Shown here: positions 625 through 12,685 of the stretch, piece after piece
How the letters are laid out: each line of letters starts with the position of its first letter
Numbering within the stretch: the first letter of the stretch is position 1
Program-made: the position numbers and the translations under genes
The notes under the pieces: generated by a model
The model's database searches: none
Told to the model about the DNA's origin: nothing
The model's input: the letters and a program-made list of their open reading frames with translations, nothing else
Assembly: GCF_014137945.1 (NCBI RefSeq)
Contig: NZ_JACGWX010000002.1
Location: 124,001 to 188,000 of the forward strand
Source of the DNA: Microcella alkalica
GTDB lineage: Bacteria > Actinomycetota > Actinomycetes > Actinomycetales > Microbacteriaceae
DNA: 64,000 nt
Direction: 5' to 3'

Positions 625-655
625 AGTGCGGAAGGAGGGACTTGAACCCTCACGC
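625..655. repeat. Left attachment site (tRNA-Leu 3' end copy)
   Basis: 31 bp identical to 12602-12632. In the minus orientation it spells the T-arm and acceptor 3' strand of tRNA-Leu without the rest of the gene. This is the tRNA 3' fragment displaced when the element integrated, so the intact copy was rebuilt at the other end from element DNA. Confidence 0.9.
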
Positions 656-686
656 GGGCCTATTTCTGGCCTCAATCTAGAGCAAG

Positions 687-770
687 TTCCGCATGTTTCC
701 GGGCCTTTTGGGTCACGTTCGCTCACGTCGGCGTCAGCGATTGTATGGGGTTTGTGGGGTTTTCGTGGGG
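687..770 (+). repeat. Integrase arm-type repeats, left end
   Basis: Two motif classes seen again near the right end in the same orientation. The first, 687-712 (TTCCGCATGTTTCCGGG...), matches 12565-12590 at 22 of 26 positions. The second is a run of three GTGGGGTTT-like units at 744-770, matching the two units at 12511-12531. Repeats beside an att core on both sides fit arm-type binding sites for a tyrosine integrase. This is inferred from position and repetition only. Confidence 0.55.
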
Positions 771-796
771 AGCAGATGCCGCCGAACGCAGAAACC

Positions 797-823
797 GGGC
801 GAGCTGATCCGAAGACCAACCCG
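797..823 (+). repeat. 27-bp direct repeat flanking cargo cassette, copy 1
   Basis: GGGCGAGCTGATCCGAAGAC plus 7 more bases recur at 2140-2166 with two mismatches. The pair brackets exactly the three genes at 841-2087. Confidence 0.7.
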
Positions 824-840
824 CCCGCTCTGCACTTCAG

Positions 841-1251
841 CTAGTAGCGCTCGAGATCCATCTGGTACAGCGCCTCGAGGTGCTCGGGGCAGTATGACGG
901 CACCGCCGCGAGCGTCAGGGCCTCCGCCCGCATTGTGTTCGTCACGCTCTCTACGAATGCGTAGATGTTTCCCTCTTGCGAGATGAGACCGCACGCAGCT
1001 TGACCGAGGGAGACCAGATCGGCAGGCGACGAACTTGCGTACAGGCCGGGATCGAGGAGGCGCAACGACTCGAGGAATGCGTCGTCGTCGCCATTGTCGA
1101 TCGAGGGTGACTGCTCCGGGGCCGATGATGCCTGCGTGGGCTCAACGGCGTCCAGTGCGGGTGTCGGTTGAGCATCGGGGGTCTCAGAGACGATCGTGCA
1201 ACCCGCAGTCACCAAAACCAGTAGCGCCACGAAGTGAAGAGATCTCCTCAT
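841..1251 (-). CDS. DUF732-like lipoprotein (element cargo)
   Basis: A 136-residue protein. It opens MRRSLHFVALLVLVTAGC: two arginines, a hydrophobic core and a lipobox V-T-A-G-C, so it is a predicted lipoprotein exported by Sec and anchored to the outer face of the membrane. A Thr/Pro/Ser-rich linker follows. The C-terminal half (DDAFLESLRLLDPGLY, LVSLGQAACGLISQEGN, YCPEHLEALY) has the DUF732 pattern with two conserved cysteines. The ATG is preceded by TACTGT at 6 nt (minus strand), a leaderless-type -10, and no ribosome binding site. Function is unknown; surface-exposed lipoproteins on prophages sometimes act in superinfection exclusion, which is only a possibility here. Confidence 0.75.
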   Translation of the reverse strand: MRRSLHFVALLVLVTAGCTIVSETPDAQPTPALDAVEPTQASSAPEQSPSIDNGDDDAFLESLRLLDPGLYASSSPADLVSLGQAACGLISQEGNIYAFVESVTNTMRAEALTLAAVPSYCPEHLEALYQMDLERY

Positions 1252-1359
1252 GGCTGCACAGTACCTCTCAGGAAACGAATAGCCCAGCGCAGGACGGCGA
1301 CCCGGCGTAGCCTTCTCTCGCAGTAGGCCGGACTGGTCCACACCCTCGAGGAGCACACC

Positions 1360-1707
1360 GTGACCGCCTGGCACCCCGTACTAGCCGCCCACGAGCAAAC
1401 ACCCGGCGTGTGGTTCCTGACCGCGCAGACGGGCGCGTACGCCGCCGTGCGGCTGATTGAGATCGCGGGGGATCGCGGATACCGGGCCACCACCTACGCA
1501 CAACCGCGGCGTTTCATCGGCTACCGACGCACCCTACGCAGCGGGTGCGAGCTCGCACACCAAAACTGGATCAAACAACACGGGCCACACCCCGACCCGG
1601 CAACTATCTATCCGAACCTAAACGGCGACCGTGGCGCGGTACTCGCCAGCGGCGCTAGCCTCACGACATGGGAAGAATCGGCCTCATCTTTGGAGGAGCG
1701 GCGCTAG
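1360..1707 (+). CDS. Conserved hypothetical protein, element cargo
   Basis: A 115-residue protein from GTG, with GAGGAG 6 nt upstream. The N-terminal 75 residues (WHPVLAAHEQTPGVWFL, YAAVRLIEIAGDRGYRATTY, FIGYRRTLRSGCELAH) resemble a small protein I associate with actinobacterial integrated elements and of unknown role. The region after about residue 76 looks unstructured. The last 40 bases overlap the next gene. No transmembrane segment or catalytic motif is visible. Confidence 0.6.
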   Translation: MTAWHPVLAAHEQTPGVWFLTAQTGAYAAVRLIEIAGDRGYRATTYAQPRRFIGYRRTLRSGCELAHQNWIKQHGPHPDPATIYPNLNGDRGAVLASGASLTTWEESASSLEERR

Positions 1708-2087
1708 GTGCTCTTGTGGGCGCGGGAGCAACGATCGGACTGTACGACGCCTCGGTAGTTGCCACGCAGCGGGAGCAACTGGAAAGCCTCTCGATTTTGG
1801 CTCGTGGGTACAGTGACACTCTCGACGAAGTTTATGAGGATGCGTATCGAGCTCTCGACGATTGTCACGTCATCATCGGCGACGCAGTCGATGCGGGTGC
1901 CGAGATGGCCGCGGCTTACGAAGACAGTCGACGAGCAGTGGATGACTTCTTCACCCCAGGCCTATTCCAAGCGGGCGACGCGGACTTTCTTTATTTTTCG
2001 CTGTCACTCGCAGACGAACAGCGATACGGAGCGGACTCGTTAATCGAAGCGATTCGCTTCACTGATTCAGATTGCTTCTCATTCTGA
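1668..2087 (+). CDS. Membrane-anchored hypothetical protein, element cargo
   Basis: A 139-residue protein with a single N-terminal hydrophobic segment rich in glycine and alanine (residues about 4-25, IGLIFGGAALGALVGAGATI), then a soluble, mostly helical acidic domain (YSDTLDEVYEDAYRALDDC, AEMAAAYEDSRRAVDDFF). It is probably tethered to the membrane with the C-terminal domain outside, though topology is not certain. TAGCCT ends 6 nt before the ATG, the leaderless pattern seen elsewhere in the window. Base composition is lower in GC than the flanking chromosome, in keeping with acquired cargo. Not recognised as a known family. Confidence 0.65.
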   Translation: MGRIGLIFGGAALGALVGAGATIGLYDASVVATQREQLESLSILARGYSDTLDEVYEDAYRALDDCHVIIGDAVDAGAEMAAAYEDSRRAVDDFFTPGLFQAGDADFLYFSLSLADEQRYGADSLIEAIRFTDSDCFSF

Positions 2088-2139
2088 TGGATGCAAGGCG
2101 GTCATGCACGGCAATACATCCGGTAAACCTCGAAAAGGC

Positions 2140-2166
2140 GGGCGAGCTGATCCGAAAACCGACCCG
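2140..2166 (+). repeat. 27-bp direct repeat flanking cargo cassette, copy 2
   Basis: 25 of 27 positions match 797-823 in the same orientation. It lies in the otherwise featureless 153 bases between the plus-strand cargo genes and the convergent SHOCT gene. Confidence 0.7.
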
Positions 2167-2240
2167 AACCGGCGCTTCCGCCCCCTTTCGCTGCGAGCAC
2201 CACTCGCGACCATGGAGGTCAACCGGATGTAGACAGCCAC

Positions 2241-2762
2241 CTACATCCGCGCAAGAAGCTCGGTCTTCTTCGCGGCGAACTCCTCTTCTGTGAGGACACC
2301 AGCATCCCGAAGACTCGCAAGCTTTTCTAGTTGAGCTGCAACGTCGACGAGCGGCGCAGCTACCGCAGCTGCCACTGGCTCCGCCGGCGCAAGCTGGCCG
2401 TCCAAGGGCCGACCCAAAATCAGCCGAGTGAGAGTGTCCTGCACGGTCTTCGCTTCAGCGTGCGAAACGCGGAAATCGACTGTGTTGCCCGCCGTGATGA
2501 CCGACACACGAGAATTGAGCATCCCATCCCGCGCGGTCGTCACCGACGTAATCGACTTGATTGGGATCATCTCGGAGCCCGCCTTGCCGTTCTTCACGCC
2601 GGTGGCAAGCATTGAAAGCCCCACGGTCATAATCCCAGCCGTCACCTTGGCGCCCGAAACACCGCGGGCAACATTCCACTCAACCCGATCCGCGTAAATG
2701 CTGACCTTCGCATTCTTCCCCGCAACATGTGATGTGAACTGGTGCAACGGTGAGTCAGTCAT
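2241..2762 (-). CDS. SHOCT-domain protein with PH-like N-terminal domain
   Basis: A 173-residue protein. The start ATG is chosen for the AGGGGAA sequence 6-7 nt upstream. The N-terminal part (VAGKNAKVSIYADRVEWN, SEMIPIKSITSVTTARDG, NTVDFRVSHAEAKTVQDTL) looks like a bacterial PH-type beta domain. A short Ala/Pro linker leads to a C-terminal SHOCT motif (LEKLASLRDAGVLTEEEFAAKKTELLAR), a short helical oligomerisation module found at protein ends. A hydrophobic stretch (VTAGIMTVGLSMLAT) sits within the N-terminal domain. This architecture is widespread in actinobacteria and their phages; the role is unknown. It is the last minus-strand gene of the element. Confidence 0.7.
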   Translation of the reverse strand: MTDSPLHQFTSHVAGKNAKVSIYADRVEWNVARGVSGAKVTAGIMTVGLSMLATGVKNGKAGSEMIPIKSITSVTTARDGMLNSRVSVITAGNTVDFRVSHAEAKTVQDTLTRLILGRPLDGQLAPAEPVAAAVAAPLVDVAAQLEKLASLRDAGVLTEEEFAAKKTELLARM

Positions 2763-2999
2763 AGCGGTTCCCCTATCGGTGGTTTGCGCTGAGCGTAGCC
2801 GAGCGATTGTCGGCTCGCACCTGGTGAATGAGGAACCTCGACAGAAGACGTGCCGCGATGTCTGATTCGCCGCACACTCTGACCGAAAGGTCACATCGCC
2901 TAGAGCCCACCACGGGCACACCCGGAACCACTTACGACCCGGGCACCCACCCCCCAGCCCCCCTCACGCGGAGCGGCCACAGCACACCCTCACAGGGGC

Positions 3000-3260
3000 C
3001 TAAACGGGCTCGATACCGGGGTCCCACGGACGATCCGCGAACACGTAACACTCCTCGAAGAACCGTTCCAACTCGCCACCCGGCCAGCCATGCACTTCCG
3101 CGAACAGTTGGCGCTGCTCCAACCAGTCATCCCGTCGAGCCGTCCATTCATCCCACGCCGCCACGCGCTCCCAGTACGGGGCAGAGAAGTCATCTACGAA
3201 CGGCTTGAACGTGCGCAACCCCTGGTTGTCACCCTTGAACACCGCAACGCGGCGTCTCAC
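3000..3260 (-). CDS. Small phage protein coupled to the terminase-like gene
   Basis: An 86-residue protein starting MRRRVAVFKGDNQGLRTFKP. The GTG start overlaps the TGA of the preceding gene as GTGA, which decides the start; the frame stays open upstream but that part is low-complexity shadow sequence. It is rich in aromatic residues (WERVAAWDEWTARRDDWLEQRQLF), ends acidic, and has no membrane segment. Short proteins of this composition occur next to small terminase genes in actinophages. A role in packaging or head assembly is only guilt by association. Confidence 0.65.
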   Translation of the reverse strand: MRRRVAVFKGDNQGLRTFKPFVDDFSAPYWERVAAWDEWTARRDDWLEQRQLFAEVHGWPGGELERFFEECYVFADRPWDPGIEPV

Positions 3261-3601
3261 GACACGCTCCTCAGCGCGTACACGCCCCGCACGCCCCTCG
3301 AGCGCGGCAAAGCGTCCTCCTCCAACCCGGGAACCTGCAACGTCGCCAGAAGCCGCGCAAGCGCCAACTGCTGCTGACGGATCTCCGCCACCGCCGGATG
3401 CAGGCGTGAGCCCTGCGACGAATCCAACATCAACCCGTCCCCCTCCAGCCGGGCACGCAAGGTCGCGATCGTGTCCCGAACCCGGCACGCCTCCTCCAAC
3501 TGAGCCGCCTCATGCTCCGCAGGTTCGAACTCCTCCAACACGGCATCCCACAGCTTCCGCCCGGGCTTCCCCAGACCAACCGGTGCACGTCTGACGCTCA
3601 T
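3257..3601 (-). CDS. Phage terminase small subunit-like protein
   Basis: A 114-residue protein. The ATG follows AGGAATCCTTG; a TTG one codon upstream is an alternative start. Sequence order: GLGKPGRKLWDAVLEEFEPAEHEAAQLEEAC, then a helix RDTIATLRARLEGDGLML, then HPAVAEIRQQQLALARLLATLQVPG. This layout (aromatic helix, charged helix, HP.v.E.r.Q...l.rl) is that of P27/actinophage small terminase subunits, which recognise phage DNA and recruit the large ATPase-nuclease. No large subunit follows; the next coupled gene encodes only 86 residues. In a satellite, a private small subunit would redirect a helper's large terminase to the satellite genome. Confidence 0.65.
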   Translation of the reverse strand: MSVRRAPVGLGKPGRKLWDAVLEEFEPAEHEAAQLEEACRVRDTIATLRARLEGDGLMLDSSQGSRLHPAVAEIRQQQLALARLLATLQVPGLEEDALPRSRGVRGVYALRSVS

Positions 3602-3688
3602 CAAGGATTCCTAACTGTCATTCCAGGGCCGATCGTTTCGGACTTCTGCGGGGGTAAAGGCCTTATGCCGTCGGGGGTGCCGCTGGCA

Positions 3689-3714
3689 GGGGGTGGGGGG
3701 GGTGGGGGGGTGGG
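3689..3714 (+). repeat. G-run tract (G5-T-G8-T-G7-T-G3)
   Basis: Four uninterrupted G runs separated by single T residues on the plus strand, hence C runs in the minus-strand transcript. It lies in the 162-base gap between the tape-measure stop and the terminase-like start. The pattern satisfies the canonical G-quadruplex rule with one-base loops, and the 7- and 8-base homopolymers are prone to slippage. No gene in this gap is well supported. Confidence 0.85.
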
Positions 3715-3763
3715 TGTTATCAGCGGGGGATACTTTTGCCGTTCTCGGCCGTGACAGTTGCCA

Positions 3764-5752
3764 TTAGTAAGCCAACCTTCCGCCCAAGATCTGATCGATC
3801 TTCTGGACAACTACCATCGGGTCAGCGCCGGACACATAGAACGTGTTGCCTTCCTGGCGTTTAGCGCCGCTCGAGCCGATTGCCTCCCCGATCTGGGAGA
3901 GGACGGTCGGGGAAAGGGGGATGACGGCTTCATCGAAGCGGCCCTCTCCGACGTTGACGATGCGTCCACCGGCAGACCGGTTGATGACTGCACCCTGCGC
4001 GAGGCGCGGAATTTTGCCGATCTTCAAGTTGATTGCGCCGCCGGTAGCATTCGACACTGCACCGGCAATACCGTTAATGCCGCCAATAACTCCGTTGATC
4101 AGGTCAATGACAACATTCATTACACCTCGAACGACACCCTTTATGCCTTCGAAGATGCCGGTGAAGATTTGGACGATCCCGGACCATGCTTGTTTCCAGT
4201 TGCCGGTGAACACTCCGGTGATGAAGTCGATGAGGCCGCGCATGATCTGCGTGGCGGCTTGGATTGCTCCGCCGAGCCATACGGCGAGGGATTCGACGAC
4301 GGCCATGATCGGCGGCAGGAGCAACTTGATTGCGGTCAGGAACGGCTTGAGGGCCATTCCGATGAGCATGGCGAACAATCCGATGAGGGGCTGAAGGATT
4401 GTTGCGACCAGCTGCAGCAGGGGTGCGACGAGGGCGAGTATTGGGGGAATTATCGGTGCGATTGCGCCGAGCAGGGCACTGAAGATCGGGACCACCTGGG
4501 TGAGGAGTGCTGCGAGCAGGGGGAGCACCATGTCGATGAGGGGCAGGAGTGCTGCGATGTTGTTCTGCACGATCGGGATAAGTGCGTCCATCACGGGGGT
4601 GAGGGCTGTGACGATCGCAGACACCACTACGAGCACCGCGCCGACGATCGCCCCGAATACTGGGATGAGTGCGTTTATGACGGGCAGGAGCGCTGTGGCG
4701 AGGGTTGCGACGAGGGGGATCACGGCGGCGACGATCTGACTGAATAGGGCCGCGATCTGGGGCATGAGCGGGCCGAGGGTTTGGAACAGGATCGCCAAGG
4801 GTGAGAATGAGGTCACCATTCCGAGGATCTGGCCGAGGTCGACGGTTGTGAGGAACTTCGCGAGGGATTCGATCGCGGGCACGAGGAACGCGCCGATCTT
4901 CTCGCCCACTGATCCGGCGACGGATTCGACGGGTCCGAGCGCTGTTGCGATCGCGGCGAACAGGGGTGGCAGGGCTGAGAAGGTGGGGCCGAGGAACCCG
5001 GCACCGATCCGGCCTAGTGCGGCTCCGACGTTCGCCATCGCGCCTGAGAATGTGGCACCGGACGAGAGAGCAGCGCCGCCGAGCCCGCCCTCCATAGCTG
5101 CCTGGAAGGTCGCGAAGTCGATCTCACCCCGCGACGCCATCTCAGACGCCTTCTCCGCAGTCACGCCGAGCTGATCGGCAATCAGAGCCAACGCGGGCAC
5201 ACCCGCGTCCTGCAGCTGGTTGATGACATCCATTTGCACCTTGTTCGATGCGGCAACCTTGCCAAAGATGGCGCCCATCGAACCAAGGTCCGTGCCGGCG
5301 ATCGTGGCAGAGTCCGCAACGAGTTTCAGGGTGCGCTCGAGATCCTTACCGGGCTTCACGCCAGCCGCCACAGCAGACGCGGCAACCTGCCCCGCATCAC
5401 CCAAACCGAACGCGGTGCCCTTCACGGACGCGAGAGCGTTCGCCATGATCTGATCCACAGACTCGGCGGAGTGCCCCAACCCGGTAAGGGTCGCGTTCGC
5501 CTGATCCAGTGCGGACAGGCGTCCGAACCCTTTCACGAGGCTTGCAGTGATGCCGCCGGCCACAACTGCGCCGATGCCGAGCGCGCCGCCCTTGAGTACG
5601 CTCCCGACGGAGGAGAGCAGCTTGGAGCCGAGAGTGCTGCCACCCTTGGACGCCTCCTTGCCGGACGCGTCGAATGCTTCCCGGACGGACTGTTTCAGGT
5701 CACCCGTAGAGGCAACGACGCTGATGTAGGCAGTGGCTAGCTCTATGGCCAT
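3764..5752 (-). CDS. Phage tail tape-measure protein
   Basis: A 662-residue protein, MAIELATAYISVVASTGDLKQ. The N-terminus has the typical tape-measure start (strand, then a long Ala/Gly/Ser helix region). Residues about 60-300 match the phage tape-measure core (ATLTGLGHSAESVDQIMANALASVKGTAFGLGDAG, GVPALALIADQLGVTAEKASEMASRGEIDF). Then comes a long hydrophobic section of alternating Ile/Leu/Ala helices. The C-terminal 50 residues carry a short strand region with DPMVVVQKIDQILGG. The family sets tail length and is ejected with the DNA; at roughly 0.15 nm per residue this predicts a tail near 100 nm. It is the only tail gene seen, and it lies upstream rather than downstream of the terminase-like gene. 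Confidence 0.88.
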   Translation of the reverse strand: MAIELATAYISVVASTGDLKQSVREAFDASGKEASKGGSTLGSKLLSSVGSVLKGGALGIGAVVAGGITASLVKGFGRLSALDQANATLTGLGHSAESVDQIMANALASVKGTAFGLGDAGQVAASAVAAGVKPGKDLERTLKLVADSATIAGTDLGSMGAIFGKVAASNKVQMDVINQLQDAGVPALALIADQLGVTAEKASEMASRGEIDFATFQAAMEGGLGGAALSSGATFSGAMANVGAALGRIGAGFLGPTFSALPPLFAAIATALGPVESVAGSVGEKIGAFLVPAIESLAKFLTTVDLGQILGMVTSFSPLAILFQTLGPLMPQIAALFSQIVAAVIPLVATLATALLPVINALIPVFGAIVGAVLVVVSAIVTALTPVMDALIPIVQNNIAALLPLIDMVLPLLAALLTQVVPIFSALLGAIAPIIPPILALVAPLLQLVATILQPLIGLFAMLIGMALKPFLTAIKLLLPPIMAVVESLAVWLGGAIQAATQIMRGLIDFITGVFTGNWKQAWSGIVQIFTGIFEGIKGVVRGVMNVVIDLINGVIGGINGIAGAVSNATGGAINLKIGKIPRLAQGAVINRSAGGRIVNVGEGRFDEAVIPLSPTVLSQIGEAIGSSGAKRQEGNTFYVSGADPMVVVQKIDQILGGRLAY

Positions 5753-5794
5753 GGTGGTGCTCCCTCTGTAGTTGTGCCGCGCCCGACAGGGGCG

Positions 5795-6067
5795 CTAGAT
5801 GCTCATTGCTTCCGTGCGGATCAGGTCGAGTTGCCGTTCGGCCTCGACGAGCCCTTCCGGGGATGCGTTACGCAGTGCGATCGCCAAATGCGTTTGATAG
5901 CCGAGCGCGTAGCTGAGGATCGCGACCGCATCGGGTCGGTTCGTCAGGTGAAATACGGCGATGTTCTCGGCGTCCTCGGGATGCTCGAGGAGCTGCACGA
6001 CCATCGCGGCGGCAATCGCGTATGCGTCGCGCGCATCCGGTTTCCGGTGGAACAGGTGCCGGATCAC
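5795..6067 (-). CDS. Hypothetical protein upstream of tape measure
   Basis: A 90-residue protein, MIRHLFHRKPDARDAYAIAA. The GTG start overlaps the TGA of the preceding gene (GTGA), so translation is coupled. Mostly helical, with one region of mixed hydrophobicity (AYAIAAAMVVQLLEH). Not recognised. By position it could be a tail-assembly chaperone, but no slippery frameshift arrangement with its neighbour is visible. Confidence 0.6.
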   Translation of the reverse strand: MIRHLFHRKPDARDAYAIAAAMVVQLLEHPEDAENIAVFHLTNRPDAVAILSYALGYQTHLAIALRNASPEGLVEAERQLDLIRTEAMSI

Positions 6068-6606
6068 TGCGGCGGCTGATACGCGAGCTCGCGCGTCAGA
6101 TCGAACGGGGTATCCCGGAACGCCGTCAGCGCGGTGAGGTCCCGCAACGCTTCCGCCTTGCTCGGATCGGACTTCTCGAACGCCTCGAGAGTTCCGAGGA
6201 ACCGCATCGCCACTGCTCGACGCACCACCGCTGTTGCGAGCCCCTCATCGCGGGTCACCTTCGCCCGCTCGAACAAGCGCAGAGCCTCAGCATCCGACTC
6301 GAGCTGTTCGGCACGGTCCGCAGCGTCGCGAATCGCGATCACATCACTGCTGGAGGACACTTCACCGAACACGCGTCGCTCCAGCGACAGGATCCGTTCG
6401 TCGACGATCTTCTCCTCCTGGGCGCGGAGAGCTTTGATCGCGGCTATCGCCTTCTCGCGGTCGCCGCGAATCTGGTCATCCTGCCCCTCGACGCTCAGCA
6501 GAGCATTCGCGCGAACCGCGTTCAACAGCGTCCAAACGTTGTCTCGATGTTTCTGCGCCTGATTCCGCAACGCGTCGAGCTGCTTATCAATATCTGTGAG
6601 TGCCAT
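6064..6606 (-). CDS. Coiled-coil hypothetical protein of the element
   Basis: A 180-residue protein. The start is fixed by a strong AAGGAG 7-8 nt upstream. It is almost entirely helical and charged (DIDKQLDALRNQAQKHRDNVW, EKAIAAIKALRAQEEKIVDERILSLERRVFG, DAADRAEQLESDAEALRLFERA), so a coiled coil is likely. There is no membrane segment. It precedes and overlaps the 90-residue gene upstream of the tape measure. Family unknown; a structural or chaperone role is inferred from place only. Confidence 0.65.
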   Translation of the reverse strand: MALTDIDKQLDALRNQAQKHRDNVWTLLNAVRANALLSVEGQDDQIRGDREKAIAAIKALRAQEEKIVDERILSLERRVFGEVSSSSDVIAIRDAADRAEQLESDAEALRLFERAKVTRDEGLATAVVRRAVAMRFLGTLEAFEKSDPSKAEALRDLTALTAFRDTPFDLTRELAYQPPQ

Positions 6607-6607
6607 A

Positions 6608-7006
6608 TCATTGTCTCCTTGACCGCCAGTGGGCGAGTTCTTCCCGCGAAATCCGATAACGTCCGTCCGGGCATTCCGCAACCAGATCGCCGCGCCCAAT
6701 TGCTGCGCGGACTCCTCGGTCTGTGATTCCCGTTATGGCTGCCACTTGTGTGGTTGACAGCCAGTTCAATTGTGGGTCGAGTTCCGGTTTAGCCGCTTCA
6801 CTGGTTCCGGTTACGGAAACACGCCACTGTAAATCTGCTCTCCGCATGGCAAGCAGCACCGCGTCAACCTCGGGGTCAAATCCGCGATGCGCTAAACGGA
6901 ATTCGTCCAATTTGGCGTGACGGTTCAGCACGGCGGCGACTCTCGCCGGCATGATGACGACCATCCCGTCGGCGTGCACGTAATGCTCCGGGGTGCGGTT
7001 CACCAT
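6608..7006 (-). CDS. Helix-turn-helix DNA-binding protein of the element
   Basis: A 132-residue protein. The C-terminal third (WLSTTQVAAITGITDRGVRAAI, then GRGDLVAECPDGRYRISREELAHW) is an excisionase/MerR-like winged HTH: a helix-turn-helix followed by a short wing and the RISREEL helix. The N-terminal 75 residues have no recognised motif. Its start overlaps the end of the preceding small gene and its stop abuts the next start. It could be a second recombination-directionality factor or a regulator of the downstream tape-measure genes. Confidence 0.7.
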   Translation of the reverse strand: MVNRTPEHYVHADGMVVIMPARVAAVLNRHAKLDEFRLAHRGFDPEVDAVLLAMRRADLQWRVSVTGTSEAAKPELDPQLNWLSTTQVAAITGITDRGVRAAIGRGDLVAECPDGRYRISREELAHWRSRRQ

Positions 7007-7191
7007 GAGCGCACCGCATACGTTGCACGGAACTGGTCGATCTTTCGAGCCTGCTCACGCTCCCGCCTACGCTCCTCGTCCCGGTTGCGCCACTTCGCCC
7101 ACTGCTGGTGAAGATCCGCCGCCATCGCATCGAACGAGCTCCGCTCGAACCTCACTGCCCGCGTTTGTTCCGAATGGGTTCTACGAGGCAT
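7000..7191 (-). CDS. Small basic helical protein of the element
   Basis: A 63-residue protein, MPRRTHSEQTRAVRFERSSF. The ATG at 7191 is chosen because GAGGAG sits 7 nt upstream; a GTG 12 codons earlier lacks a comparable site. The middle and end are a highly charged helix (WAKWRNRDEERRREREQARKID). The stop overlaps the start of the HTH gene by 7 bases. Unknown function. Confidence 0.5.
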   Translation of the reverse strand: MPRRTHSEQTRAVRFERSSFDAMAADLHQQWAKWRNRDEERRREREQARKIDQFRATYAVRSW

Positions 7192-7320
7192 TGGGCGGCT
7201 CCTCAATGTGCAGGAGGCTGTATTCACGATTCAATCCCTCACAAGCAACACAGCGCGGCAAGAAAACTTCGCCATAATGCCGATAACAGCGAGCACCTTT
7301 GTCATTGTGTCCACCAAGCA

Positions 7321-7644
7321 TCAGTGCCCTCCTCTCATGCGAAACTCGATACTCCGTAAATGGATGTCCAATAGGCGCGCCTGCGTTTGCAGGTTGCTTT
7401 GTTGCGCCTCCAGATCCCGGCCGCGCTCTTTCGCGGCCTTGAACCGGGCGGTGTCGAGGGTGGCCTGTTGCTTGCGTTCCTCGATCGAGCCGCTAGCGCG
7501 CTTGTATGCGTTCGCGTACTCCGTCGCGAATGACTCCGCTTCGGTGACCGCGCGTAGCTCGAGCTCGCGGACTTCGGTTGCGTTCCGGGCGATCTGAATC
7601 CGTATGGCGTCGAGCTCCGTGATGATCTGGTCAGGCGTCTTCAC
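7321..7644 (-). CDS. Coiled-coil phage protein of the replication operon
   Basis: A 107-residue protein starting at GTG with GGGAGG 7 nt upstream; an ATG five codons earlier is the alternative. The sequence KTPDQIITELDAIRIQIARNATEVRELELRAV is followed by a charged helix, SIEERKQQATLDTARFKAAKERGRDLE, and LQTQARLLDIHLRSIEFRMR. It resembles small helical proteins encoded beside replication or recombination genes in actinophages. It overlaps the WhiB-like gene and is the last member of the coupled early run. Specific function unknown. Confidence 0.6.
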   Translation of the reverse strand: MKTPDQIITELDAIRIQIARNATEVRELELRAVTEAESFATEYANAYKRASGSIEERKQQATLDTARFKAAKERGRDLEAQQSNLQTQARLLDIHLRSIEFRMRGGH

Positions 7645-7876
7645 GTCCCGGCCTCCCATTGCTTCTCTTGCCTGCCCAGACGCCCGCAGCAGGTCGCGCG
7701 ATCCTTCGGTACTGCTCGCATTGGGCGAAGACGGGGCACTCGGCGCAGACGGCCGCGCACGCCGCAACGTCGGCCCTGGTCAAGTCGTCGGCCGTGAACA
7801 AATAGAGGTCACGGCACGCGGGCCGGTAATCCTCCATCGCGTCGACGAGGGCTTCCCACGCTTCTGCGACCCTCAT
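7631..7876 (-). CDS. WhiB-like iron-sulfur protein of the element
   Basis: An 81-residue protein. Four cysteines are arranged as in WhiB proteins: Cys21, then Cys44-x2-Cys47-x5-Cys53, followed by GVWAGK, the WhiB G[VI]W.G turn, and a basic tail. An extra Cys40 is present. WhiB/Wbl proteins bind a [4Fe-4S] cluster and modulate the principal sigma factor; actinophage versions can repress host whiB genes. The ATG overlaps the ATPase stop codon as ATGA, so both are made from one transcript. Here it could switch host or helper-phage transcription, which is inference. Confidence 0.75.
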   Translation of the reverse strand: MRVAEAWEALVDAMEDYRPACRDLYLFTADDLTRADVAACAAVCAECPVFAQCEQYRRIARPAAGVWAGKRSNGRPGREDA

Positions 7877-8907
7877 GCCGCGAAGTCACTCTCTAGAGGG
7901 AGTGAGATTTGTGGGATGTTGTGACTTTCAGAGCCCGAAAGTCTCAAAGTCCCACTTGTCACAGGCGCATATAGACCGCGCTCCAACTTCCTGATCCGCT
8001 CGGCTTCGACGGCCCTACGCAGGTACTCGTTCAAGTTCGGCTGACCGGGCAGGAGCTGTCGGAGCGCCCCCGCCTTGATGCCTTCGGGGAACCGGTTCAC
8101 CGTTTCGATCAGCTCGAGCATCGGTTCCCCGACGCTCTTGTTCGCCTTCACGATCCGGGCGTTGTTCTGCGCCTGCTCGAGTGATTCGCCGTCGAGGGTC
8201 CAGACGCCGCTCTCGGACATGGTGAGGGCGTACTCCCCTTCGGCTGCGTCGCGGGAAGTGACGTTCAAGATCGCGCGCTTCTCGAGTCGTTCACGTCGGA
8301 GAACCAGTACCGAATCGGCGGCTCCTGCGATGCCCTGCGTTCCGCTCACTGCGTCCAGGAAGTCGCCTGCGTCGCTCTTTCGCGTGTGGTGCACGATTAG
8401 GAGGGATGAGCCGGGTACGGCGTCACAGGTCGCCTTGAGCTCGCTGAGCACCTTGTAGTCGTGTGCGTAGGCGTTGCTGTTGCCTGCAGGCGGCATGACC
8501 TTGCCGAGCGTGTCGAGGATGACGACTGGATCGCTGCCGGCGAAAGCGTTGATGTAGTTGCTGATCGTGCGGAGCACTTGCCCCGGCTGAAGCTCCGTAA
8601 CGAATTGCAGACGTGCGTCGAGTCGCCCTGCGCCCATGCTGTGAATGCGCGACTGAAGTCGGCGGTGTCCGTCCTCGAGTGCGAGGTAGAGCACCGGCCT
8701 CGGTGAGCCGACCGGGAGCACTCCGAAGGCGTCGCCGCCTTGAGAGAGAGTGATGCCGAGACCGAGCACCATCCAGCTCTTGCCGATCTTCGGTGCCGCG
8801 ACGAGAAGGGACATGCCTTCGGGGATGATCCCCGGCACTACGTACTGGAGCGGCGGGAACTCCTGCTGCATGAGCCAGTCGGCACCGAACATCTTCGGCG
8901 CGCTCAC
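7873..8907 (-). CDS. AAA/RepA-like replication or repair ATPase
   Basis: A 344-residue protein of the AAA_25 (RecA-fold, RepA helicase-like) family. Walker A AAPKIGKS is at about 37-44; LALEDG (acidic residues about 78-79) and Walker B VVILDT (about 128-133) follow, then IVHHTRK and GTQGIAGAADSVLVLRRER, characteristic of this family. The GTG start forms a GTGA overlap with the previous gene; upstream in-frame sequence is shadow. The C-terminal 80 residues (ELIETVNRFPEGIKAGALRQLL) look like a winged-helix tail. It is probably the replication ATPase that lets the element multiply after excision. Confidence 0.8.
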   Translation of the reverse strand: MSAPKMFGADWLMQQEFPPLQYVVPGIIPEGMSLLVAAPKIGKSWMVLGLGITLSQGGDAFGVLPVGSPRPVLYLALEDGHRRLQSRIHSMGAGRLDARLQFVTELQPGQVLRTISNYINAFAGSDPVVILDTLGKVMPPAGNSNAYAHDYKVLSELKATCDAVPGSSLLIVHHTRKSDAGDFLDAVSGTQGIAGAADSVLVLRRERLEKRAILNVTSRDAAEGEYALTMSESGVWTLDGESLEQAQNNARIVKANKSVGEPMLELIETVNRFPEGIKAGALRQLLPGQPNLNEYLRRAVEAERIRKLERGLYAPVTSGTLRLSGSESHNIPQISLPLESDFAA

Positions 8908-9284
8908 GCGGCCGCCTCCGATCCCTGGCGCCACAGCTCGGACTCGGCGTGACGCTCCCAGTTCAGCCGCGGGTTCGCGTGGCGGAAGTACCAGTAATTT
9001 GCCTCGAAGTTCAGTCGAGCCACCTCGTGATCGCGAGACTCCCGGCCTTGAATCCACGCGCGCACGTAGAACCAATGCAACGAATCGGGAAGCTGCCAAA
9101 GCTCGAGCAGACCTGCCGCGAGCCCGTTGGAGAGGCCGTCGATGAAGGCTGCGCCCTGCTCGGAGATCTCGATCTTCTGGGGCTCGGGTTCGGCGGCGGC
9201 GGTAGAATTGGAATGGCTGCCAGGCCTAAGAGTGTGTACGGATGCCCCGCCTCGTGCGGGGTTTTCGTCGTTTCGTCGGGTCAT
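8904..9284 (-). CDS. Hypothetical protein upstream of the ATPase
   Basis: A 126-residue protein, MTRRNDENPARGGASVHTLR. The ATG has AGGGAGA about 9 nt upstream. The first 45 residues look disordered. The remainder is a compact aromatic domain (AAFIDGLSNGLAAGLLELWQLPDSLHWFYVRAWIQGRES, FEANYWYFRHANPRLNWER). The end overlaps the ATPase start. Not recognised; the aromatic-rich domain and coupling suggest a partner of the ATPase. Confidence 0.65.
   Translation of the reverse strand: MTRRNDENPARGGASVHTLRPGSHSNSTAAAEPEPQKIEISEQGAAFIDGLSNGLAAGLLELWQLPDSLHWFYVRAWIQGRESRDHEVARLNFEANYWYFRHANPRLNWERHAESELWRQGSEAAA
9245..9265 (+). terminator. Intrinsic-terminator-like hairpin antisense to the element operon
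   Basis: CCCCGC (9245-9250), loop CTCGT, GCGGGG (9256-9261), then TTTT. The U-run is on the plus strand, opposite to the genes here. It lies within the first codons of the minus-strand gene at 8904-9284. It could stop antisense transcription, or the hairpin may simply encode ENPARGG. Confidence 0.5.
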
Positions 9285-9375
9285 GTGCTCGTCTCCCTGA
9301 AATGACAAAAGCGCCGGCCCCGCGGGTACGGGACAAGCGCTTCTGTCTGGATCGTATGAAGTTGTGGGGGTACTG

Positions 9376-10203
9376 CTACTCGCCGTCGTCGAGGATGCTC
9401 TCGTACAGATCGGCCATTGCGGAGATGCCCTTCGCCAGGTCACGCAGACCGCCCGGCGTCACGGCGGGGTCGTGCCGGCGAGGCTGCTCGACCGAGACAA
9501 CCGGCCGCGGCTCGTCAGCGCGGAGCACGTCACCGTTGGCGCCGAACTCGACGAACTGCTCGATTGCGACATACGCGCCCCAGACCGGTTCGCTCTCGCA
9601 CAGGAACCCGGCACGGCTGTAGGTGATGCTGAACTCCTCGTCGCCGTCATCGCTGATGCAACGCAGAGTCGGCTCGTCGGCCCAGATGGGCTTCGCGGCC
9701 ATCGCGAAGGGGCGGTACTTCTCCAGCCCTGCCATATCCCGACGCATGACCTCCTGGTACGTGATCGTTTCGAATGCGCGCTCACCGTCCACGACCGTCT
9801 CGGCGGTCACGTAGTAGTCCCCGCGTCCGACGATGAGGTAGTTGTGGCCAAGGCGGTGCACCGCGTTCGGAGTGAAAAGAGCCCACGCGCTCGGTGTGGT
9901 CTCGAACTGCTCCGCCCACCACCCGTCAGGGCGCTCCTCGAGCGGGATCAGTCGGCCGTCGAGGTCGTAGATCTCGGAGTAGTGCACGAGGTAGCTGCGG
10001 TTGCCGACGTTCTGAGCGACCTCATCCGGGTTGCGGAAGTAGCGCGCCGGACGGACCCACACGTCGACAGGCGCCGTGAAGAAGGGGCTGTCCTCCTCGA
10101 CGGTCAGGTAGTAGCCCGGCTCGACGGCGTCGATCTCCGCGAGGAGCTGCTCGACGTCGAGGGCGGTGGGGGAGCCGACGAGAGTAGAATTGGCGCTGTT
10201 CAT
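9376..10203 (-). CDS. Hypothetical element protein, 275 residues
   Basis: Starts MNSANSTLVGSPTALDVEQL, with AAAGGCAAG about 5 nt upstream. It is an acidic, beta-rich protein with many aromatic residues (YYLTVEEDSPFFTAPVDVWVRPARYF, YLVHYSEIYDLDGRLIPLEERPDGWWAEQF, HNYLIVGRGDYYVTAETVVDG). There is no signal peptide, membrane span or recognisable catalytic motif. Located in the early operon between small genes and the 126-residue gene. Family not recognised; it is the largest unassigned early protein of the element. Confidence 0.6.
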   Translation of the reverse strand: MNSANSTLVGSPTALDVEQLLAEIDAVEPGYYLTVEEDSPFFTAPVDVWVRPARYFRNPDEVAQNVGNRSYLVHYSEIYDLDGRLIPLEERPDGWWAEQFETTPSAWALFTPNAVHRLGHNYLIVGRGDYYVTAETVVDGERAFETITYQEVMRRDMAGLEKYRPFAMAAKPIWADEPTLRCISDDGDEEFSITYSRAGFLCESEPVWGAYVAIEQFVEFGANGDVLRADEPRPVVSVEQPRRHDPAVTPGGLRDLAKGISAMADLYESILDDGE

Positions 10204-10237
10204 TGTCTTGCCTTTCGTGAGTTGAGTGATGAACCTG

Positions 10238-10266
10238 CCCCCGGCCTGCTCCAACAGGTGCGGGGG
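10238..10266. terminator. Stable hairpin in the early operon
   Basis: CCCCCG at 10238-10243 pairs with CGGGGG at 10261-10266, with an inner CCTG/CAGG pair. On the plus strand TATTTAT follows; on the minus strand, the direction of the genes, no U-run follows. It separates the coupled xis pair from the 275-residue gene, so it may act as a processing or partial termination point. Weak call. Confidence 0.4.
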
Positions 10267-10281
10267 TATTTATGTCGCGGA

Positions 10282-10548
10282 CTACGCAGCCCGCTTGAGG
10301 TGAGCGCGGATTCGCTTCCGGCTCGGCTTGAGGATGAAGTACTGCCGCAGAATCAGCTTCATGTCTTCCGCTTCGACATAGATCGGCAGGTCGGGCGAGT
10401 TCTCGAAGTAGATGACGCAGACGCCGCGCATGTTTTGAACGGCCTGCTCACCCGTGGGGTCGGCGTACCAGAGCGGCCCGTCTTGGTTGTCCGGCGACCT
10501 CTTGTCAGCCCGACTGATGTTCGCGACGTGCGCGACTGTTGGGGTCAT
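10282..10548 (-). CDS. Small hypothetical protein coupled to excisionase
   Basis: An 88-residue protein, MTPTVAHVANISRADKRSPD. The ATG overlaps the stop of the excisionase-like gene (ATGA). The central part (LWYADPTGEQAVQNMRGVCVIYFENSPDLPIYVEAEDMK) looks like a small beta domain, and the C-terminus is basic (ILKPSRKRIRAHLKRA), possibly nucleic-acid binding. Not recognised. Confidence 0.6.
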   Translation of the reverse strand: MTPTVAHVANISRADKRSPDNQDGPLWYADPTGEQAVQNMRGVCVIYFENSPDLPIYVEAEDMKLILRQYFILKPSRKRIRAHLKRAA

Positions 10549-10754
10549 GCGACCTGCCCGGTTCGCGTCTGGGCGCTGCCCTCGATCCAGTCGATGATGT
10601 CCTGGCGCTTGTACAGGACCGTCTTCGGCGTCGGCTTGTAGAACCGCGGCGGCAAGCCCATGTACCGGCGCTGCGCGAGCTTGCCCTCGGTCATCCCGGA
10701 GACCATCGCTGTCACCTGCTCAGGGTTCAGATAGTCGTTCTCGCCGTTGTCCAT
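10545..10754 (-). CDS. xis: Excisionase/AlpA-like HTH protein
   Basis: A 69-residue protein starting MDNGENDYLNPEQVTAMV, with GGAGG 5 nt upstream of the chosen ATG (an ATG fused directly to GGAGG is the alternative). The pattern YLNPEQVTAMVSGMTEGKLAQRRYMGLPP.FYKPTPKTVLYKRQDIIDWI is the DNA-binding winged helix of phage excisionases: HTH, a YKPTP.TVLY wing, and a DI..WI helix. As the first gene of the minus-strand operon it probably directs integrase toward excision. Confidence 0.75.
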   Translation of the reverse strand: MDNGENDYLNPEQVTAMVSGMTEGKLAQRRYMGLPPRFYKPTPKTVLYKRQDIIDWIEGSAQTRTGQVA

Positions 10755-10870
10755 GTCATCCTCCAAGTTGGTGTCGAAGCGACTCCTACATCGTTTCGGT
10801 GATTCCAGTGTGCCTCACATTTATTTGATTTGCAAGACCGTTTCTAACATTTTTGGCTTACACTCGCACC
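10755..10870. promoter_or_regulatory. Divergent switch region between repressor and excisionase
   Basis: AT-rich for this genome. For the repressor (plus), TACACT at 10859-10864 ends 6 nt before the ATG with no ribosome binding site, so the transcript is probably leaderless. For the early operon (minus), TTGCAA at 10835-10830 and CACACT at 10812-10807 are separated by 17 nt. The octamer A(T/C)CGTTTC occurs at 10790-10797 and 10837-10844 and could be operator half-sites. All of these are sequence predictions. Confidence 0.55.
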
Positions 10871-11443
10871 ATGGAGGAATTGAAGACCTACGCCGTCGTT
10901 GATGACACGTTTGGCGCAGCGGTTCGAGAAGCAAGAGAGCGCTCACGCATGACACAGGCGCAGCTTGCGGAAGAGATGAAGTACCGAGGCTTCGACTTTC
11001 ATCAGCAGACCGTCTACCGGATCGAGTCCGGGAAGAGGAAAGTGACTGTCGGAGAGGCGCTGGCCCTGTCGGAGCTCGTCGAAGTGCCGCTCGACGTGCT
11101 TGCGGCACGCAGTGAGGACTCGCTCCAGCGGCGTCGCCAGACGCTCCGATTCATGGCTCGTCAGACGGTTCAATACATCGAGGAAGTCGCCGCCGCGGCC
11201 GAAGAGGCCAAAGAGAAGCAGAGTGAGCTACGTGACTCGGCTGCCCTGCTGGACAAGATTACTACGGGCACCGATCGAGCTATCGATGGGAAGGCGGAGA
11301 GCTGGGTCGAGCATTACCGGCCGATCTTCGATCATCCTGTTGCGCGACACGCTACCGAGGGGTTCGAGGACCTGCTGTGGCGGCTCGACTACGACTGGGT
11401 AGACGACGAGTGGAAGCGAGGCCCCGAGGATGGGGAGCGTTGA
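10871..11443 (+). CDS. XRE-family repressor of the element
   Basis: A 190-residue protein, MEELKTYAVVDDTFGAAVRE. The N-terminal XRE helix-turn-helix (residues about 15-75: AVREARERSRMTQAQLAEEM, FHQQTVYRIESGKRKVTVGEALALSELV) is followed by a helical linker (ARQTVQYIEEVAAAAEEAKEKQ) and a C-terminal part with no peptidase motif. It lacks the LexA/CI Ser-Lys autocleavage signature, so induction would need an antirepressor, as for satellites that respond to a helper phage, rather than RecA-driven self-cleavage. It diverges from the early operon and overlaps the integrase gene start. Confidence 0.75.
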   Translation: MEELKTYAVVDDTFGAAVREARERSRMTQAQLAEEMKYRGFDFHQQTVYRIESGKRKVTVGEALALSELVEVPLDVLAARSEDSLQRRRQTLRFMARQTVQYIEEVAAAAEEAKEKQSELRDSAALLDKITTGTDRAIDGKAESWVEHYRPIFDHPVARHATEGFEDLLWRLDYDWVDDEWKRGPEDGER

Positions 11444-12563
11444 GGGGTACAAGGTCGGCAACTCTCAGAGGTACCGCGTCCGCTACCGCGACCCTGACCG
11501 GCGCCAGCGCGAGAAGGCCGGGTTTACTCGGAAGATCGACGCCGAAGAGTACCTAGCTGCCGTCACGATCAACATTCGCCGCGGAGAGTTCATCGACCCC
11601 GGCGAAGCGCGCGCCACCATCCGCGACCTCGGCTCCACTTGGCTGGCCGCGCAGACCCACCTCAAGCCGTCATCTATCCGGCCGCTCGAAACGTCATGGC
11701 GCGTCCACGTCGAACCCCAATGGGGTGACCGGCGAGTATCCGAGATCCGGCACAGCGAGATCCAAACATGGTGTTCGCAGCTCTCCGCCGAGAAGTCCGC
11801 CACGGTCGTCCGCCGCGCGCACGGCATCCTCGCGAGCGTGCTCGAGGTCGCCGTCCGCGACCGCCGCATCTCGACAAACCCGGCGCGAGGTATCGGCCTG
11901 CCGCGGAAGCTGTCAAAGCAACGCTCCTACCTGACCATGCCGCAGATCGAACGGCTCGCCCACCATGCCGGGCAGCACGGGGCGCTCCTCATGCTCCTCG
12001 CGTACACGGGCCTCCGATGGGGTGAAGCGACCGCCCTCCGAGTTCAAGACATCGACATGCTCCGCCGCCGCGCAGTCGTCCGAGAGAACGCCGTCCGCAT
12101 CGGCCGCGAGATCCACGTCGGCACTCCGAAGACACACCGGGTTAGGTCGGTTCCCTTCCCGACGTTCATGTCCGAGCCGATCGCTCGAGCATGCGAGGGG
12201 AAGGGTCGTGACCGGCTGGTCTTCGGTGACGGCCTGACGCACGTCCGAGCGACCTACGGGGAGCGGGGATGGTTCGCTAATGCTGTTCGAGCTGCACAGG
12301 CCGAAGACGCCGACTTCCCACGCCTGACGCTGCATGATCTGCGGCACTCGGCCGCGAGCCTCGCGATCAGTGCCGGGGCGAACGTCAAGGCCGTGCAAGC
12401 GATGCTCGGACACGCCTCCGCAACCATGACCCTCGACACCTACGCCGACCTCTTCGACGACGACCTCGAGGCCGTGGCGACGCGACTCGAGGATGCACGC
12501 TCTCGGCAGAGTGTGGGGTTTTTGTGGGGTTCTGCTCCTCAGGAGCGCTCCGGGAGCATCTAA
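11430..12563 (+). CDS. int: Tyrosine integrase of the element
   Basis: A 377-residue tyrosine recombinase. It has an N-terminal arm-binding AP2-like region, a core-binding helical domain (SSIRPLETSWRVHVEPQWG), then the catalytic domain with Arg196 in TGLRWGE, His302 and Arg305 in LHDLRHSAA, His328 in LGHAS and nucleophile Tyr338 in TLDTYAD. All expected catalytic residues are present. The ATG lies within the last codons of the repressor gene, so expression is coupled to it. The gene ends 38 bp before the attR core, and its last codons contain arm-type repeats. Integration target is tRNA-Leu(UAG). Confidence 0.95.
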   Translation: MGSVEGYKVGNSQRYRVRYRDPDRRQREKAGFTRKIDAEEYLAAVTINIRRGEFIDPGEARATIRDLGSTWLAAQTHLKPSSIRPLETSWRVHVEPQWGDRRVSEIRHSEIQTWCSQLSAEKSATVVRRAHGILASVLEVAVRDRRISTNPARGIGLPRKLSKQRSYLTMPQIERLAHHAGQHGALLMLLAYTGLRWGEATALRVQDIDMLRRRAVVRENAVRIGREIHVGTPKTHRVRSVPFPTFMSEPIARACEGKGRDRLVFGDGLTHVRATYGERGWFANAVRAAQAEDADFPRLTLHDLRHSAASLAISAGANVKAVQAMLGHASATMTLDTYADLFDDDLEAVATRLEDARSRQSVGFLWGSAPQERSGSI

Positions 12564-12590
12564 CTTCCGCGTGTTTCCGGGGGTTTTGAG
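12511..12590 (+). repeat. Integrase arm-type repeats, right end
   Basis: Two GTGGGGTTT units at 12511-12531, inside the integrase 3' end, and TTCCGCGTGTTTCCGGG at 12565 onward, the counterpart of 687-712. Same orientation as at the left end. Putative arm sites. Confidence 0.5.
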
Positions 12591-12601
12591 CCCTCGACTA
12601 C

Positions 12602-12632
12602 AGTGCGGAAGGAGGGACTTGAACCCTCACGC
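12602..12632. repeat. Right attachment site within tRNA-Leu
   Basis: 31 bp identical to 625-655 and part of the intact tRNA-Leu at 12604-12685. The strand exchange therefore took place inside the T-arm/acceptor sequence and the element restores the gene. Confidence 0.9.
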
Positions 12633-12685
12633 CCGAAGGCACAGGAACCTAAATCCTGCGTGTCTGCCGATTTCACCACTTCCGC
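12604..12685 (-). tRNA. tRNA-Leu (anticodon UAG)
   Basis: The 82-nt minus-strand gene begins GCGGAAG, which pairs with CTTCCGC before discriminator A. The anticodon stem CAGGA/TCCTG encloses loop TTTAGGT, giving anticodon TAG. A variable arm TGCCTTCGGGCG and a T-arm with GGTTCAAGTCC are present, as expected for a class II tRNA-Leu. CCA is not encoded. The 3' half is supplied by the integrated element. Confidence 0.95.

Follow-up and report, generated by a model that had tools for sequence, protein, structure and literature searches.

What kind of mobile element encodes a ruler for phage tails and a packaging subunit without any recognized capsid gene? The question is raised by a 12,008-bp element of Microcella alkalica (assembly GCF_014137945.1, 2.74 Mb in 13 contigs). 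It was found in a 64,000-nucleotide stretch, herein referred to as the window, that covers positions 124,001-188,000 of the forward strand of contig NZ_JACGWX010000002.1; coordinates given without a locus name are positions in the window. The only recognized morphogenesis genes of the element are those for a tape measure protein (TMP) and a small terminase subunit (TerS). Well-studied phage satellites mostly alter the capsid or the packaging of their helpers. The element described here is probably a helper-dependent phage satellite, whose TerS would redirect packaging and whose own TMP would be used for building helper tails. The related loci suggest a recurring group of Actinobacterial satellites that rebuild the tails of hijacked phages. 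Below, G-numbers denote the genomes searched (G000 is the window's own genome) and L-numbers denote the loci or contigs examined.

Integration Site and Gene Content

The element is delimited by exact 31-bp direct repeats (Table 1). The tRNA-Leu gene covers the right repeat, so this attachment (att) copy sits inside the gene, which remains whole. The G+C content in 1-kb windows is 59-67% inside the element vs. 69-77% to its right. An integrase gene with att repeats at a specific site is a trait shared with phage-inducible chromosomal islands (PICIs) of the Staphylococcus aureus pathogenicity island (SaPI) type.

Twenty translated open reading frames (ORFs) of the element were each searched on their own in Pfam and PHROGs (E<=0.1). 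Genes for a repressor-like protein and an integrase are read rightward. The leftward run starts with genes for an excisionase-like protein, two proteins without assignment, a small protein, an AAA_25 ATPase, a WhiB-like protein, a coiled-coil-like protein, and a further small protein. It continues with the HTH_17 gene, orf6064, orf5795, and the genes for TMP, TerS, a small protein, and a SHOCT-domain protein; the run is followed by a small cargo region encoded on both strands. Three adjacent gene pairs overlap by 4 bases (5795-6067/6064, 7631-7876/7873, and 10282-10548/10545), in agreement with the intact, coupled frames described in the initial annotation. The att repeats, integrase, switch, ATPase, WhiB-like protein, 662-aa TMP, and TerS listed there were likewise recovered by repeat, tRNA, and profile evidence, with putative roles of the proteins in excision and replication. 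The genes for the excisionase-like protein and the repressor-like regulator form a divergent pair near the integrase gene, as in a PICI-type switch, which is their putative role.

No families of large terminase (TerL), portal, capsid, tail tube, or lysis proteins were matched in these scans, fragments under the reach of the profiles being possible; their lack had also been claimed beforehand. The sole exception concerns lysis: the best PHROG match of the TMP, phrog_971, is labelled 'endolysin', and this family is also matched by three other TMP-like proteins in this analysis. Thus, TerS (assigned by PHROG, below the Pfam cut-off) is present without TerL, portal, and capsid, as in PICIs that redirect packaging. 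The capsid, portal, and TerL genes typical for capsid-forming PICIs (cf-PICIs) were not recognized, nor were the head, portal, TerL, and tail tube genes expected for a prophage, whole or as fragments within profile reach. A satellite-encoded TMP, a trait of PICI-like elements (PLEs), is present.

The excisionase-like protein falls into cluster C0, which is mixed with HTH17-like proteins and reaches 30 of 33 loci. The AAA_25 ATPase was found in 5 of 249 genomes of the family, the own genome counted.

Table 1. Features of the element in the window.
Feature	Coordinates	Strand	Evidence or remark
att copy, far end	625..655		exact 31-bp repeat of 12602-12632
Possible cargo cassette	796..2166		between 28-bp direct repeats 796-823 and 2139-2166; DUF732 protein and two small ORFs
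SHOCT-domain protein	2241..2762	-	PF09851 4.2e-10, over cut-off
Small protein after TerS	3000..3260	-	cluster C16; relatives in L096 and L101 likewise after TerS
TerS	3257..3604	-	phrog_1496 1.9e-17
TMP, 662 amino acids (aa)	3764..5752	-	PF20155 6.7e-17, over cut-off; phrog_10780 2.7e-53
orf5795, 90 aa, between orf6064 and TMP	5795..6067	-	no Pfam or PHROG match
orf6064, 180 aa, predicted all-helical	6064..6606	-	co-occurs with TMP
HTH_17 DNA-binding protein of the satellite core	6608..7006	-	PF12728 4.7e-8; relatives aligned
WhiB-like protein	7631..7876	-	PF02467 7.2e-7, over cut-off
AAA_25 ATPase, RepA-like, putative replication protein	7873..8892	-	PF13481 3.3e-25
Small DNA-binding protein, putative excisionase	10545..10766	-	phrog_2528 1.7e-5 (unnamed); no Pfam match
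HTH repressor-like regulator	10853..11443	+	HTH_31 1.3e-9, HTH_3 3.1e-9; phrog_3 5.4e-10
Tyrosine integrase	11430..12563	+	PF00589 1.2e-19; phrog_1 9.3e-67
att copy within tRNA-Leu	12602..12632		exact 31-bp repeat; overlaps tRNA-Leu 12603-12685 (-)

Tape Measure Protein

The TMP contains a PF20155 domain at residues 80-248, and its residues 321-645 match the 622-aa chain J (FtbJ) of the solved structure PDB 9j1k (3.4e-21); from its sequence, the protein looks whole. Relatives were found in 762 of 50,697 phage records (E<=1e-10), none of them covering 80% of the TMP in one place. Stretches of the N-terminal half match TMPs of phages or viral contigs at 56-72% identity. At the nucleotide level, megablast of the element against the phage collection returned one record with a 4% stretch, located inside the TMP gene. 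A full-length relative of 603-609 aa with 43% identity was found in viral contig L025. Among closed-ORF relatives in viral contigs (best segment of at least 45% identity), 11 of 12 have 904-1349 aa and one (L053) has 230 aa. A reading of the window's TMP as a shortened ruler is not claimed, given the length of the L025 relative.

TMPs of related elements belong to different families, PF20155 in the window and L087 and PF10145 in L080, L083, L084, L085, and L086. Of the 20 loci with both genes, the window is the only one in which the TMP gene comes before the TerS gene; the order is reversed in the remaining 19. Together, the different families and positions fit repeated gain better than shared loss. 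The TMP-bearing locus with the TerS closest to that of the window, L096, shares 73% identity in TerS, 53% in the integrase, and 42% over 269 aa in the TMP. The TMP of L083:10700-13449 is spread over two frames (162 and 744 aa) and is split or frame-shifted.

Two satellite-to-satellite pairs of TMP genes show protein-level constraint in their coding sequences, as judged by simple counts with no fitted dN/dS, synonymous sites near saturation, and short metagenome contigs as one partner (L156, L159). For the pair L085 and L159, each of which has the satellite core and a TMP, the three codon positions differ at 29, 26, and 56% and the fourfold sites at 61%, with protein identity of 60%; orf6064 and TerS show a like pattern. 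Between L152 and L156, the codon positions differ at 33, 23, and 53%.

Distribution of Related Elements

Searches with TerS yielded 11 loci in 10 of 249 genomes of the family (own genome counted), 22 loci in named genomes, and 12 viral contigs. After removal of four duplicates (L104, L106, L108, L111) from these 45 rows, 41 distinct loci remained, the window counted. The named genomes belong to Arthrobacter, Demequina, Microbacterium, Herbiconiux, Leucobacter, Agrococcus, Frigoribacterium, Frondihabitans, Cryobacterium, and others. A TMP gene was found near the TerS gene in 20 of the 41 loci: the window, L080, L083 (split), L084-L087, L096, L098, L102, L112, L113, L156, L157, L159, and L162-L166. 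The TMP of L163 was called by PHROG matches only (named TMP family at 7e-7). No TMP was found in another 20 loci, some of which lie on contigs that end short; L160, with a large terminase, and L094, with a 760-aa protein without a PHROG match, are among them. The last locus, L089, is complete-prophage-like; judging from its ORF sizes, it is probably a complete prophage with the start of a TMP gene at its cut end, its TerL, portal, and capsid labels being guesses with no profile results. Neither the ATPase of the window nor orf6064 is present there. By ORF sizes, L115, one of the 20 loci without a detected TMP, also looks like a prophage.

From 16 TMP-bearing elements (TMP whole, split, or remnant), 146 proteins of at least 85 aa without another label were scanned together. 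This set omits proteins already labelled or placed in large clusters, and for most of the elements the ends are not defined by att repeats. Among the best 25 of 31 Pfam families, none represents a large terminase, portal, capsid, or tail tube; the six families beyond these are apparently single matches weaker than ~1e-5. Ten proteins, mostly large, were scanned singly. L149 and L154 gave weak tail-spike matches; the weak matches of L096 and L080 were to head-decoration, tail, or minor-head proteins.

The spike-like proteins are encoded at L149:7490-9376 and L154:11313-12695 (6.7e-6 and 7.8e-5), and a weak beta-helix match, just under the cut-off (1.3e-5), was found at L085:13446-15167; all three elements carry a TMP. 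As judged from these matches, such proteins may alter host recognition. Repetitive fibre-like proteins are encoded at L081:11331-12131, L097:10581-11201, L101:8041-8700, and L098:114-818, three of the four in elements without a TMP, and their relatives sit after the TMP in viral contig L047. A size comparison of att-bounded elements (4 with vs. 9 without TMP, p 0.003) is not relied on, as it omitted L097, L091, L099, L139, L145, and L153; the 15.3-kb L097 has TerS and no TMP.

Co-occurrence of orf6064 with the Tape Measure Protein

The protein encoded by orf6064 is predicted to fold into two long helices followed by shorter ones. Within the TerS-found set, orf6064 was found in 12 of 20 loci with a TMP vs. 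1 of 20 loci without (Fisher p 4e-4); this value is a guide only, since the orf6064 profile was built partly from the same loci, the loci are non-independent, and some contigs without a TMP are short.

Profile A2 of orf6064 matched 23 loci in 21 of 398 genomes of the family, the window counted. The TMP is intact in ten of these loci (window, L084, L085, L086, L140, L144, L147, L151, L152, L154), split in L083, reduced to a remnant in L149, and lost to an insertion sequence (IS) in L139. It was not detected in the other ten (L090, L092, L141, L142, L143, L145, L146, L148, L150, L153). Outside these elements, no match of orf6064 was found by tblastn in the 50,697 phage records, and none in viral contigs with two single proteins as queries. 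The best hit of its sequence profile among PDB chains has an E of 0.022.

Together with orf5795, orf6064 occupies the position of tail chaperone genes; no chaperone or hub profile was matched, and orf6064 has no fold match. A part for orf6064 as a partner in a tail step is speculative. In three elements without a TMP, a family of 250-276 aa is encoded directly before TerS, about where orf6064 lies elsewhere (L094:9059-9877, L101:9181-9933, L081:9992-10822).

Sibling Element, an Island in a Congener, and Possible Mobile Forms

A second satellite-like element of the same genome, L139:7903-17393 (G000:C1), is located at a tRNA-Val gene. It is 93% identical to the window element over 2.0 kb and 99% over 0.5 kb, and the SHOCT proteins of both are 99% identical over 128 aa. 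At the place of the window's TerS and TMP genes, L139 has an IS3-type insertion; an alternative cassette replacing them was rejected, as the gap holds an IS3-type transposase gene. The repeats around the possible cargo cassette of the window have 2 mismatches in 28 bp and flank a 1.3-kb stretch. At L139:8904, there is a single repeat, with a left context like that of one copy, a right context like that of the other, and no cassette stretch. A gained or lost cargo cassette in the window is possible.

At the tRNA-Leu gene used by the window element, the congener G413 has two att cores around another island of about 8.9 kb (L191:1697-10622). The integrase of this island is 76% identical to that of the window over 358 aa.

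The metagenome contig L163 (10,693 bp) begins and ends with the same 111-bp stretch, as in an assembled circle, and contains genes for an integrase, a regulator, an excisionase-like protein, TerS, and a TMP-like protein. The 9,844-bp L160, with TerS and TerL, has a 127-bp terminal repeat, and L164 and L165 each contain two satellites in tandem. These circular-looking and tandem assemblies suggest mobile, possibly excised forms. At L163:4006-4620, a protein is encoded that weakly resembles (28% over 175 aa) the phage Elener capsid maturation protease. A congeneric genome, G398, contains a TMP relative among other long ORFs.

Comparison with Known Satellites

SaPI/PICI-type satellites are not known to carry a TMP. 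A private TMP, called unusual in the initial annotation, is already known from Vibrio PLEs, and putative ones are described for cf-PICIs (PMC12987554). In the open-licence literature, no report of Actinobacterial satellites with a TMP was found among the matches listed.

The closest parallel is provided by the PLEs of Vibrio cholerae, described as the first satellites known to make chimeric tails with private TMPs (PMC12987554, Nature 2026). The TMP of PLE11 was found in virions, whose tails are 10 nm shorter, and deletion of the TMP gene lowers transduction by ~99.9% in PLE11, 96% in PLE1, and 99% in PLE4. According to the legend of Extended Data Fig. 10 of this paper, PLE-like elements and cf-PICIs also contain putative tmp genes. 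Like PLEs, the window element has its own TMP and would borrow the capsid and most tail parts, as shown for PLE11 (PMC12987554). Unlike it, PLEs use the contractile-tailed helper ICP1, and the gene set of PLE11 extends to a tail chaperone and a baseplate hub (PMC12987554). Compared by gene content, the TMPs of the Actinobacterial elements match long-tailed actinophage families, TerS is present in the window element, and no chaperone or hub was recognized there. Its host is not a Vibrio with ICP1 as the helper and belongs to the Microbacteriaceae, along with Frigoribacterium, Frondihabitans, Cryobacterium, and Leucobacter.

In gene content, the element resembles SaPI/PICI-type satellites in size range, integrase, switch, and, in some of them, TerS, and its ATPase gene is a putative counterpart of their replication gene (in part PMC10690885). 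In contrast to these satellites, no capsid-size gene was recognized in it and no inducing phage is known. cf-PICIs are also satellites, with putative tmp genes said to be held in their sampling (PMC12987554); they differ in carrying capsid, portal, and both terminase genes (PMC10690885), of which only TerS is found in the window element. The candidate PICIs of Mycobacterium are likewise Actinobacterial, integrase-bearing, and often located at tRNA genes; however, they are defined by a major capsid gene, and the term 'tape measure' does not occur in the main text of their description (PMC10654092). The Streptomyces satellites MulchRoom and MiniFlayer are Actinobacterial too, but encode terminases, portal, and capsid, and again the main text has no 'tape measure' (PMC10690885).

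Evaluation of the Alternative Explanations

Several observations weigh against the satellite reading. It is drawn from sequence, and the helper, induction, excision, and particles are putative. In G074, G366, and G405, the tRNA-Leu sequence is accompanied by a single att core and some of the right flank; a clean empty site is not demonstrable there, the left flank of the window not adjoining the core. In G000, searches with two families, PF05065 (capsid) and PF03354 (large terminase), gave no match, so no resident helper was detected. As to the assignment of TerS, its match to Pfam Terminase_4 (E 0.011) is below the cut-off. Half of the TerS loci have no detected TMP. Conversely, the TerS profile has no match in 6 of the 10 orf6064 loci with an intact TMP (L140, L144, L147, L151, L152, L154); thus, a TMP and a TerS of this kind can occur apart. 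For the model of orf6064 (mean pLDDT 86, 7 sequences), no fold match was found in PDB or BFVD at E<=0.001. With 662 aa, the TMP is within the range of phage TMPs, and together with the size of the L025 relative this means that a special tail length is not evident. No head or tail family was found for the 146 proteins among the best 25 of 88 PHROGs, where single matches may be hidden. Finally, three proteins of the window have counterparts in the probable prophage L089: TerS (distant, 32%), the excisionase-like protein (54% over 59 aa), and, in part, the integrase (45% over 97 aa).

The similarity to L089 would also be expected for a reduced prophage, that is, a once complete phage stripped of the genes for head, tail tube, and lysis, with the TMP and TerS as leftovers. 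TMPs are ordinary phage proteins, as the matches of the N-terminal half illustrate, and decay does occur, as seen from the IS3-type insertion in L139, the split TMP in L083, and the remnant in L149. Nevertheless, this explanation is unlikely, and a prophage remnant is a less likely description than a satellite. The same reduced set recurs in the 20 TerS loci with different TMP families and positions, and the two constrained TMP pairs connect satellites with satellites. Among 97 viral loci picked by TMP (~10 kb on either side), 70 match the TMP profiles used and none has orf6064, this TerS family, or this ATPase. No examined relative with this core and the missing genes was found. The initial annotation had named two findings that would refute its satellite reading. 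The first, structural genes hidden in the other ORFs, were not recognized in the element by Pfam and PHROGs, and the second, the same backbone with a morphogenesis module in relatives, was not found in the 16 TMP-bearing elements scanned (best 25 of 31 Pfam families). The phage satellite reading proposed there is thus supported.

The satellite TMP could also be a decoy that spoils the tail assembly of the helper, as interference or host defence, and is not built into satellite tails. Defences of satellites and prophages do act against tail assembly (PMC11364771, PMC10884400; Rta in PMC12987554). We consider this improbable: the architecture of a TMP is kept, with its N-terminal domain and a C-terminal half like the chain of a solved structure; the few TMP-bearing elements with weak spike-like or beta-helix matches fit tail building better; and the PLE11 TMP is incorporated (PMC12987554). 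That the TMP, and perhaps TerS, is cargo gained by chance recombination with helpers and without a function in transfer would suit its absence from half of the TerS loci and from 10 of 23 orf6064 loci, but is very improbable given its repeated position beside TerS, its association with orf6064 across non-independent loci, and the protein-level constraint on it.

Proposed Mechanism and Implications

A helper-dependent satellite therefore remains the preferred description of the element. In the proposed mechanism, which follows the precedent of PLEs (PMC12987554) and beyond the gene content is conjectural, infection by a siphovirus helper would lift repression, and the element would excise and replicate. 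Its TerS would then steer the large terminase of the helper to satellite DNA. The satellite TMP would replace that of the helper, and the tail tube and tip of the helper would assemble on the satellite ruler, giving chimeric tails. The possible gain could be a tail that fits the satellite particle, escape from interference directed against the helper TMP, or altered DNA delivery. Control of the tail length of hijacked virions by the TMP, as suggested in the initial annotation, is plausible in such a mechanism. By the general rule of roughly 0.15 nm per residue, a TMP of 662 aa would predict a tail of about 100 nm.

More tentatively, and with a little less than even confidence, the elements with TerS and/or orf6064 can be viewed as a second, independently arisen group of tail-rebuilding satellites. 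Members of this group would swap in TMPs of different phage families and use orf6064 in doing so, and some would add a spike-like protein, so that the satellite would set the ruler as well as part of the host-recognition tip.

The importance of a private TMP was shown in Vibrio PLEs in 2026 (PMC12987554). A broad and modular Actinobacterial group that carries TerS and TMP would imply more than one origin of tail remodelling. Its related backbones, some with and some lacking a TMP, would form natural sets for directly testing why a satellite needs its own ruler.

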